This document shows, piece by piece, positions 5,680 to 60,903 of a DNA stretch of 63,958 bases (position 1 is the first letter of the stretch; every line of letters begins with the position of its first letter). Under the pieces are notes generated by a model that did not search any database, had not been told where the DNA came from, and saw only the letters and a program-made list of their open reading frames with translations. The DNA is taken from the NCBI GenBank assembly GCA_009773355.1, contig WRPG01000025.1, positions 1 through 63,958 of the forward strand, given 5' to 3'. This DNA is from Limisphaerales bacterium (lineage in GTDB: Bacteria; Verrucomicrobiota; Verrucomicrobiia; Limisphaerales; SXTU01). Both the position numbers and the translations under genes were made by a program.

Positions 5680-5694
5680 GCGAAGAGGACTGCC

Positions 5695-5864
5695 CGCGAA
5701 TCACGCGAATGGACGCGAATGAAACAAGCCCGTGCCGGCGTTTTGCAAACGCCGTCCGCAAGTCGGGCGAGCAGAGGCGGCCACAAAGGTCTGTGGCGTT
5801 CGGGCGGCGGCTGCAAAGCATCGACACCTGGACTTGGCATTCGCGTCTATTTGCGTCATTCGCG
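5695..5864. repeat. Palindromic element with 27-bp inverted arms
   Basis: Arms 5695-5721 and 5838-5864 are inverted copies matching at 24 of 27 positions. Each arm is built of three 9-10-base units of the type CGCGAATGGA. Between them lies at least one further perfect hairpin, CGGCGTTT-TGC-AAACGCCG (5736-5754). The element fills the whole gap between the cutA start and the end of the S1/P1 nuclease gene, so it overlaps the probable cutA promoter. Confidence 0.85.
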
Positions 5865-5875
5865 GGCGGCTCGTT

Positions 5876-33672: not shown

Positions 33673-33750
33673 GAAGTAATCAGTAATCAGTGTTCAGTAT
33701 TCAGTCGCGCAGACCGGACGTTTCACTGAAAACTGATTACTGATTACTTC
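33673..33750. repeat. Heptad-armed palindrome, TAATCAG type
   Basis: Arms 33673-33698 and 33725-33750 are inverted copies matching at 25 of 26 positions; the left side continues to a fourth heptad (to 33704). Units are TAATCAG, TAATCAG, TGTTCAG, TATTCAG. It sits between two convergent genes and contains the TAA stop of the minus-strand gene. Its layout mirrors the larger element at 44095-44535 but with a short loop and no gene. Confidence 0.93.
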
Positions 33751-43438: not shown

Positions 43439-44107
43439 ATGACCCCCGGACAAATCACCCAAGCCAACGCCGCCCTGCGCGGCAAGTCCGCGCTCGAAGT
43501 CGTGCAATGGGCCATCGCCCAAGCCGGCGGTCGCGCCATCGTCTCGACAAACTTCCGGCCTTACGAGGCCGTCATCCTCCACCTCGTCACGCAAGTGCAG
43601 CCGGACATCCCGGTGCTCTGGGTGGATCACGGCTACAACCGCGCCGCCACTTACCGGCACGCCGAGCAGCTCAGGTCGCAGCTCAAGCTCAACATCAAAG
43701 CTTTCGTTCCCAAGCTCACCGCCGCGCACTACGACGCCGTCCACGGCGGCATGCCCGAGCCGACGCCGGAGAACGAGGAGCGCATCAAGGCCTTCAGCAC
43801 CGTGATGAAGCTAGAACCCTTCCAGCGCGGCATGAAGGAACTCGCGCCCACCGTCTGGCTCACCGCGCTGCGCAAAGTCCAGAACCCGAACCGCGCCGGC
43901 CTCGACATCGTTTCGCCCGACGGCAATTTCAACTCGCTCAAAGTCAGCCCCGTCTTCCACTGGTCCGACGCTGAGATGGAAGTGTATCTCAAGCAGCAAA
44001 ACCTCCCGAACGAGTGGGATTATTTCGACCCAGCCAAGGCGGACGAGAAGCGCGAGTGCGGCCTCCACGCGGCGTGGGGTGGAAAGGCGGTTGAAGGGAA
44101 TAGGTGA
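43439..44107 (+). CDS. cysH: Phosphoadenylyl-sulfate reductase
   Basis: 222 residues. CysH reduces PAPS (or APS) to sulfite using thioredoxin. The nucleotide-binding start (AIVSTNFRPYEAVILHLV) and the catalytic cysteine in ECGLH (Cys207) are present. The paired CC...CC motif that binds 4Fe-4S in APS reductases is absent, which points to the PAPS type. After ECGLH the protein ends with about 13 residues, the last of which (EGNR and the TGA stop) are encoded by the left inverted repeat of the element at 44095-44535. Thus the element was inserted at the very end of cysH and replaced its stop codon. Confidence 0.92.
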   Translation: MTPGQITQANAALRGKSALEVVQWAIAQAGGRAIVSTNFRPYEAVILHLVTQVQPDIPVLWVDHGYNRAATYRHAEQLRSQLKLNIKAFVPKLTAAHYDAVHGGMPEPTPENEERIKAFSTVMKLEPFQRGMKELAPTVWLTALRKVQNPNRAGLDIVSPDGNFNSLKVSPVFHWSDAEMEVYLKQQNLPNEWDYFDPAKADEKRECGLHAAWGGKAVEGNR

Positions 44108-44535
44108 TGGGGAATAGGGAATAGGGTGCGATGGCGACGCCACAGACATTTGAGGACACGGAAGCGTGGAAGGCAGCGCGTGTGCTTACGCAGAAGGTTT
44201 ACACCCTGTGTCGCCGCGAGCCGCTGGCGCGTGATTTTGGACTTTGTGACCAGTTGCGCCGGGCGGCTGTCTCGGTGATGAACAATCTGGCGGAAGGCTG
44301 GGAAAGCATCCACTTGGCCGAGAAGAAACAGGCTTACAACTACGCGCGCCGTTCCTGCGGCGAAGTTCGCTCCATGACCTACGTGATGCTCGACAACCAC
44401 TTCATCACCGCTCCCGAACAACTCGAATTCCTCACCCACTGCAAATTCACCGGCAAACTCATCACCGGCCTCATTCATTCCGTAGACCGACGCTGACCGC
44501 AAACCCTATTCCCCATTCCCCATCACCTATTCCCT
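44095..44535. mobile_element. IR-flanked four-helix-bundle element inside the cys operon
   Basis: 441 bp. Inverted repeats 44095-44127 and 44503-44535 match at 32 of 33 positions and each is made of four heptads of GGGAATA type (one reads GGTGATG). They enclose a single gene with almost no spare DNA (3 bases before its ATG, 6 after its stop). The left repeat supplies the stop codon of cysH; the right repeat ends one base before the cysD start codon. As RNA, the repeats would pair into a 33-bp stem closing the gene as a loop, the layout of 23S rRNA intervening sequences. No transposase is present and no target-site duplication is evident. Confidence 0.9.
44131..44496 (+). CDS. Four-helix-bundle protein (23S rRNA IVS / Avd-like family)
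   Basis: 121 residues. The family core is plain: WKAARVLTQKVYTLC, FGLCDQLRRAAVSVMNNLAEG and NYARRSCGEVRSMTYVMLDN. These four-helix-bundle proteins were first seen encoded in intervening sequences of 23S rRNA genes and are related to Avd of diversity-generating retroelements; they form pentameric barrels and bind nucleic acid. The biochemical role is unknown. Here the gene is neither in rRNA nor beside a reverse transcriptase but sits alone between long inverted repeats in the cysH-cysD junction, in the same direction as the operon. No ribosome-binding site other than the repeat itself precedes the ATG. Confidence 0.95.
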   Translation: MATPQTFEDTEAWKAARVLTQKVYTLCRREPLARDFGLCDQLRRAAVSVMNNLAEGWESIHLAEKKQAYNYARRSCGEVRSMTYVMLDNHFITAPEQLEFLTHCKFTGKLITGLIHSVDRR

Positions 44536-44536
44536 C

Positions 44537-45475
44537 ATGTCTTCGTATCACCTAGACCACCTTCAATACTTGGAAACCGAAGCGATTCACATCATGCGTG
44601 AAGTCGCCGCCGAGTTCGAGCGGCCCGCCGTTCTCTTCTCCGGCGGCAAGGACTCCATCTGCATCCTGCGACTTGCGGAGAAGGCCTTCCGCCCGTCGGA
44701 CATTCCGATGCCGTTCCTGAACGTCGAGACCGGCCACGAGTTTCCGGAGTTGATTGAGTTCCGAGACCGCCGCGCCAAGCAGCTCGGCGCGAAGCTCATC
44801 GTCCGCACCGTGGAAGAGGCATTCGCGAAGGGCATTGCACATCCGACGCCCGGCCAGATCAGCCGCAACCAGCTCCAGATTCCCGTGCTGCTGGGCGCGA
44901 TTGAAGAGTTCCGCTTCGACTGCTGCATCGGCGGCGCGCGCCGCGACGAGGAGAAAGCCCGCGCCAAGGAACGCTTCTTCAGCTTCCGCGACGCCTTCGG
45001 CCAGTGGGACCCGAAAAACCAGCGCCCCGAAATCTGGAACCTCTACAACGCCCGCGTGAACCCCGGCGAAAACATGAGGGTCTTCCCGCTCTCGAACTGG
45101 ACCGAGATGGACGTGTGGGAATACATCCAGCGCGAGAAGCTGGAGGTGCCGAACATCTACTTCAGCCACGAGCGTGAATGCTTCCGGCGCGGCGGCCAAT
45201 GGCTCCCCCTCCCGCCTCCGCACACCGACGCTGGCAAACCCGACCCCTACGCCGGCGCGCGCCCGACCGCGAAGGAGCCGGCGAAGAAAATGGTCTGCCG
45301 CGTCCGCACCATCGCCGACATGATTAGCACCGGCATGATCGAAAGCCCTGCCGACAACGTGACCGACATCATCCGCGAAGTCGCCGCCGCCCGCGTCACC
45401 GAGCGCGGCACCCGCGCCGACGACAAGGCCAGCGAAGCCGCGATGGAAGACCGCAAGAAGGCCGGTTACTTTTGA
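44537..45475 (+). CDS. cysD: Sulfate adenylyltransferase small subunit
   Basis: 312 residues. ATP-pyrophosphatase loop SGGKDSICILRLAEKAF near residue 35, then RRDEEKARAKERFFSFRD and the MDVWEYIQREKLEVPNIYFSH motif. With CysN it makes APS from sulfate and ATP in the cytoplasm. The start codon follows the right inverted repeat of the IVS-like element by one base, so the natural ribosome-binding region has been replaced by repeat sequence (TATTCCCTC). Translation of cysD may therefore depend on the element. cysN starts 11 bases after its stop. Confidence 0.96.
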   Translation: MSSYHLDHLQYLETEAIHIMREVAAEFERPAVLFSGGKDSICILRLAEKAFRPSDIPMPFLNVETGHEFPELIEFRDRRAKQLGAKLIVRTVEEAFAKGIAHPTPGQISRNQLQIPVLLGAIEEFRFDCCIGGARRDEEKARAKERFFSFRDAFGQWDPKNQRPEIWNLYNARVNPGENMRVFPLSNWTEMDVWEYIQREKLEVPNIYFSHERECFRRGGQWLPLPPPHTDAGKPDPYAGARPTAKEPAKKMVCRVRTIADMISTGMIESPADNVTDIIREVAAARVTERGTRADDKASEAAMEDRKKAGYF

Positions 45476-60594: not shown

Positions 60595-60670
60595 GAGTGG
60601 AGCGTTGGACGTGACTTGGTGCCCGCAAATTGAACTGTGAATTCAAGTCGCGCCCGCCAATCGCCGCTCT

Positions 60671-60831
60671 CTCATTGGCACCCGGCTTCAGCCGGGTGGA
60701 CGCCGCAGGTGAAGGCGGAAACCGTTTCAACGGTTTCTGCCGGGGAGTGACGGGAGGCAACGAGCAAGCCGTTGAAACGGCTCGCGCTGCCTCGGGGGCT
60801 GGTCACCGGGTTGAAACCCGGTGCCAATGAG
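60671..60831. repeat. Composite palindromic island with four hairpins
   Basis: 161 bp with perfect 12-bp inverted ends CTCATTGGCACC (60671-60682) and GGTGCCAATGAG (60820-60831). Four internal hairpins follow one another: CACCCGGC-TTCA-GCCGGGTG (60679-60698), GAAACCGTT-TC-AACGGTTTC (60718-60737), AGCCGTT-GA-AACGGCT (60767-60782) and CACCGGGTT-GA-AACCCGGTG (60804-60823). It fills the spacer between divergent genes, so it overlaps one or both promoters; the rest of that 310-base gap (60595-60670 and 60832-60903) shows no recognisable feature. Confidence 0.92.
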
Positions 60832-60903
60832 ATGGGCGGCAAGTTGCCCACAGTCGGCCAAACGCTGAATTGACGCCGGTGGCCTCCGGTCTAGCCTTGT
60901 TGC

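Follow-up and report, generated by a model that had tools for sequence, protein, structure and literature searches.

The 441-bp unit that occupies the whole cysH–cysD junction of the window (the entire 63,958-nucleotide stretch analysed here), in which a small IVP gene lies between inverted arrays of heptad repeats, is typical of its gene family and not exceptional. The family probably represents a widespread insertion unit devoid of a transposase and placed between co-directional genes, whose protein recognises its own arms and whose gene-less copies are non-autonomous derivatives.

The unit at the cysH–cysD junction

The features of the junction, and the only other heptad-periodic arm pair of the 64-kb window, are as follows.

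43439–44107, forward strand: cysH (PAPS reductase), the upstream host gene, with its stop inside the left arm
44095–44127, forward strand: 5′ arm, AGGGAATAGGTGATGGGGAATAGGGAATAGGGT, GGGAATA-type heptads with the G-rich strand running into the unit; includes the CysH stop
44131–44496, forward strand: IVP gene, 121 codons plus stop, PF05635/TIGR02436 four-helix bundle
44503–44535, reverse strand: 3′ arm, matching the reverse complement of the 5′ arm at all but one position
44537–45475, forward strand: cysD (sulfate adenylyltransferase subunit 2), the downstream host gene
33673–33750, no strand assigned: gene-less hairpin of AGTAATC-type heptads (arms and loop of 26 nt each), related to the arms of the unit and dispersed

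The two arms, 33 nt each, are complementary at 32 of 33 positions (97%) and are separated from the gene by GCG (3 bases) on the left and CCGCAA (6 bases) on the right. The CysH stop codon TGA (44105–44107) falls within the left arm, and one base lies between the end of the right arm and the cysD ATG at 44537; arms, gene, spacers and stop and start positions are, to the base, those described in the initial annotation. Shuffled flanks scored no higher than 14, whereas the arm score here is 30.5, which indicates that the arms did not arise by chance. Folding of the 33-bp RNA stem is predicted (z −3.3), and the mRNA might be excised or cleaved there, for instance by RNase III, as the initial annotation suggested. 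Imperfect inverted repeats with 67-nt arms (72–73%) also occur in the window at 60670–60832 and 5692–5867, outside the heptad-periodic set.

The IVP/S23 family has been on record since the 1990s and its function was never assigned; to our knowledge, no catalytic function is known for it. Profile searches assigned the window gene to PF05635 (23S_rRNA_IVP, E 1e-25) and TIGR02436 (E 3e-24), and its protein both exceeds the curated cut-off of these profiles and shares the XCC0516 fold. The structure model (pLDDT 96.6) matched 2gsc (XCC0516) best, followed by 2rld (BT_0352) and the phage Avd 4dwl, the latter with a TM of about 0.8. XCC0516 of Xanthomonas campestris forms a pentamer whose subunits are four-helix bundles (PMC4990558, PMC3936711). 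The PF05635 gene is the only gene within the unit, where no transposase family was matched, and a search for phage carriers of the family gave no match.

Repeat framing across the family and its coupling to the protein

To see how general the framing is, 58 genomes of the same order, some of them fragmented, were searched for the family, and 91 distinct genes were read with their flanks. Arms were detected by aligning the left flank to the reverse complement of the right one, with the 99th percentile of shuffled flanks as the threshold and with arm lengths derived from ungapped local alignment. Inverted 7- or 8-nt repeats exceeding this threshold framed 79 of the 91 genes. At a lag of 7 the self-identity of the arms in this set was 0.63, and at a lag of 14 it was 0.60, compared with 0.26–0.32 at most other lags, while the value of 0.40 at lag 8 was contributed by octad units. 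When named genomes were scanned with XCC0516, 80 loci were obtained, 78 of which had enough flank, and in 60 of these 78, distributed over many phyla, the gene was framed; the framed loci include Xanthomonas, Bacteroidota, Planctomycetota, Nitrospirota, Acidobacteriota, Clostridia and a Methanophagales archaeon. Of eight family genes on cyanobacterial plasmids, seven were framed. When the tested interval was displaced by 750–1050 bases along the same loci, only 0–2 of 89 were scored as framed versus 69 of 89 in place. Thus, the initial annotation's question whether the family is framed by heptads at other loci was answered by many such cases, and its own counter-case, arms decayed or absent in all relatives or a family framed nowhere else, is not what these genomes contain. 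Many of the units, such as GTTGATA and AGTATTC, are not quadruplex-like. A common core of the repeat units (A-G-K-K) was considered and rejected, being barely above that of shuffled units.

Inverted arms were also seen around another gene. GxxExxY genes (TIGR04256; loci L101 and L107–L133, e.g. L112, 1417–1896) lie between arms of CACGGATGAA type, whose period of 10–11 is different, and 22 of 27 exceed the shuffle threshold. At the L112 junction, which has a valS-like frame downstream, either GxxExxY genes or gene-less hairpins of the same type are found, depending on the species. At locus L037 (1500–2850) one helicase-like frame contains three gene-less inverted-repeat insertions of differing heptad or octad types within 1.4 kb.

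The repeat follows the protein. On a protein tree built on 107 columns, the repeat period (7 or 8) required 4 changes, compared with a mean of 17.7 and a minimum of 13 in 1000 shuffles, and arm similarity fell with increasing protein distance (Mantel rho −0.19, null SD 0.03). Close proteins had like repeats even among pairs without flank homology. The pairing is not rigid, since one protein clade at cysH–cysD bears two different heptads.

The same correspondence was observed genome-wide in Xanthomonadales. The IVP gene is framed by GGGAATC in three Xanthomonas species, by GGGATTC in Dokdonella immobilis and by GGGGACC in Pseudoxanthomonas wuyuanensis, and X. arboricola, X. vasicola and D. immobilis have one family gene apiece. 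Counted as overlapping double-heptad matches, which are not numbers of loci, GGGAATC occurred 319 times in X. arboricola, 162 times in X. vasicola and 31 times in D. immobilis; GGGATTC 40, 51 and 295 times in these genomes, respectively, and 13 times in P. wuyuanensis; and GGGGACC 129 times in P. wuyuanensis and 0 times in each of the other three, with reversed control patterns giving 0–3 matches per genome. Each of the four genomes is rich in the very heptad that frames its own IVP gene. Gene-less dispersed copies sharing the ends of a complete copy are present in Xanthomonadales and few in the window's own genome according to a non-exhaustive count; GGGAATA occurs there at only a few sites, and no resident gene with arms like those of the AGTAATC hairpin was found among the eight loci read. 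The 7-base repeats scattered in some genomes, which long lacked an explanation, are hereby tied to one small ring-forming protein, and as each genome's repeat is tied to its own gene, the repeats and the IVP family each gain a testable partner.

Placement, occupancy and the origin of the units

The units sit between co-directional genes with their arms abutting stop and start codons: 35 units have the ATG of a long frame no more than 15 nt from the right arm, whereas the antisense direction gives 2. The antisense stop-codon tally was left out because the arms themselves hold stop codons. The arms are conserved at 0.79 versus 0.64–0.65 for the neighbouring spacers, which argues that they are under constraint. 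Fast-evolving arms, or arms rewritten in place, had been suggested by the nuoJ–nuoK and cysH–cysD junctions and were rejected, as orthologous arms are on average at least as conserved as the gene; in-place rewriting is a possibility for these two junctions alone.

At cysH–cysD in the window's genus, two species carry the GGGAATA unit, three have the same protein clade with different arms, one contains a GxxExxY gene between CACGGATT arms and two have a gene-less CACGGATGAA hairpin. Every one of the eight species read thus has some insert, and no empty site was found among them. One member of the cysH–cysD protein clade was found at cysD–cysN instead. At a cysD–cysN junction (L104, G006), cysN has apparently taken up the unit's right arm as N-terminal coding sequence. 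At nuoJ–nuoK four species have a clean, empty junction; four further species, among them that of the window with a gene-less one, each have a different hairpin. ATGA is seen on either side of the insert in two of the filled sites (G000, G003) and once in the empty site; a target-site duplication would look like this, but selection for stop and start codons would equally give the pattern. The empty-site check proposed in the initial annotation was therefore borne out in part: occupancy varies and nuoJ–nuoK is empty in some species, but cysH–cysD is never empty in the eight.

Three related units are alike from arm to arm while their left flanks are unrelated; similarity that stops at the arms agrees with the discrete, arm-bounded unit that had been proposed. 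For the most part, orthologous units are kept stably from one species to the next and even from one family of the order to another, so movement appears to be rare. The cysH–cysD unit is old and mostly vertical in descent, and many other units are likewise old and inherited vertically. The earlier reading of the insert is supported in part, by the framing at other loci and the variable occupancy, and not by the age and vertical descent of this particular unit.

The mechanism we favour starts from one gene for a pentamer-forming four-helix-bundle (IVP/S23) protein, enclosed on its two sides by inverted arrays of 7- or 8-nt repeats. The protein most likely recognises, presumably by binding, the repeat of which its own arms are built, and plausibly each ring subunit reads one repeat. 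Units and gene-less hairpins would have been inserted at co-directional gene junctions, the latter as putative non-autonomous derivatives on which the resident protein acts in trans. The enzymes of movement would be those of host replication or repair, given that the protein matches no transposase family. Whether this amounts to a new bacterial mobile class with neither transposase nor reverse transcriptase, in which a lineage-specific code of 7 or 8 nt is read by a pentamer that spreads hairpins bearing it into operon junctions, is a stronger claim that we put forward tentatively and with some doubt.

The coupling of repeat and protein, the conserved arms and the sites between co-directional genes would also suit a nucleic-acid-binding regulator, for which the hairpins are operators in mRNA or DNA, its own arms serve autoregulation, and the sites arose by slippage and selection; that most Xanthomonas repeats are transcribed (Rehm et al., PMC4692102) points the same way. 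We nevertheless consider a regulator unlikely in view of entire units at unrelated sites with likeness confined to the unit, of the clean emptiness of nuoJ–nuoK in some species and of the differing genes (IVP, GxxExxY) framed at cysH–cysD. The hairpins might instead stem from another process (replication slippage, template switching or another element), with the IVP gene as a passenger that landed inside. Hundreds of heptad matches in three Xanthomonadales genomes with a single gene each, and the framing of another gene family, GxxExxY, by arms of another period, could be taken in this sense. A passenger, however, is not expected to have a repeat whose period and sequence track the IVP tree, nor a heptad identical with the genome-wide one, which makes such an origin improbable.

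Movement at the RNA level by reverse transcription, DGR- or retron-like with the reverse transcriptase supplied in trans, would accord with the Avd-like fold, with the sense placement in operons and with the two RVT_1 matches of the window's genome, both on contigs other than the window. PF00078 (RVT_1), the only reverse transcriptase profile used, gave no match in the draft genomes of X. arboricola, X. vasicola, D. immobilis and P. wuyuanensis; its absence from four genomes with about 130–320 matches to their own heptads leaves this route very improbable. Finally, retention of the unit at cysH–cysD in several species would be expected of an ordinary vertical gene beside a chance or terminator-like inverted repeat, an explanation refuted by the heptad arms that family genes have in many phyla and by shifted controls near zero. 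The transposase-less insertion unit thus remains the reading that we prefer.

Comparison with known systems

The window protein resembles the Avd protein of diversity-generating retroelements in fold; unlike Avd, its gene has cysH and cysD as neighbours and neither a reverse transcriptase nor template/variable repeats beside it. IVP genes have also been reported in cas loci (PMC3936711). On two cyanobacterial plasmids with the order cas6–IVP–cas4 (L301, L302), the IVP gene is heptad-framed, and because of these two cases the association may be one of junction insertion, which suggests that IVP genes of cas loci are operon-junction insertions and not cas genes.

The heptads themselves had been reported before from Xanthomonas and cyanobacteria, but no partner gene was given for them. 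Rehm et al. (2015) treated the GGGNATC heptads of Xanthomonas and Nostoc as G-quadruplex repeats, mostly intergenic and often in convergent inverted pairs, of which GGGAATC forms 70 in X. campestris, and made no general link to mobile elements (PMC4692102); no partner gene was found named in that paper. Identical heptads occur here, with GGGAATC around the IVP gene of three Xanthomonas species, whereas many of our units are not of the quadruplex type. No paper linking heptad repeats to the PF05635/TIGR02436 family was found in the open-access literature, preprints and most subscription journals lying outside this scope.

In REP–RAYT and MITE–transposon pairs a gene is framed by a repeat that is also dispersed, gene-less, through the genome. 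The present units are similar in that the gene-less dispersed copies share their ends with the complete copy, but they differ in containing no transposase and in having as the repeat a tandem heptad array, whose period goes with the protein clade.

An IVP gene with complementary ends is an arrangement already known from 23S rRNA. Mobility has long been suspected for the intervening sequences with an S23p/IVP frame in Leptospira and Coxiella, and that of Coxiella has a 28-bp stem and a length of 428–444 nt (PMC4990558). The cysH–cysD unit likewise has an IVP frame between complementary ends of similar length; its location is between cysH and cysD and not in a 23S helix, and the loci checked revealed no 23S context apart from one weak 15-mer hit. 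Unlike the 23S intervening sequences, the units reside in protein-coding operons, have heptad arms and are accompanied by dispersed gene-less copies. If true, the mobile-class reading would account both for the dispersed heptads of Xanthomonas, cyanobacteria and other groups and for the 23S rRNA intervening sequences.
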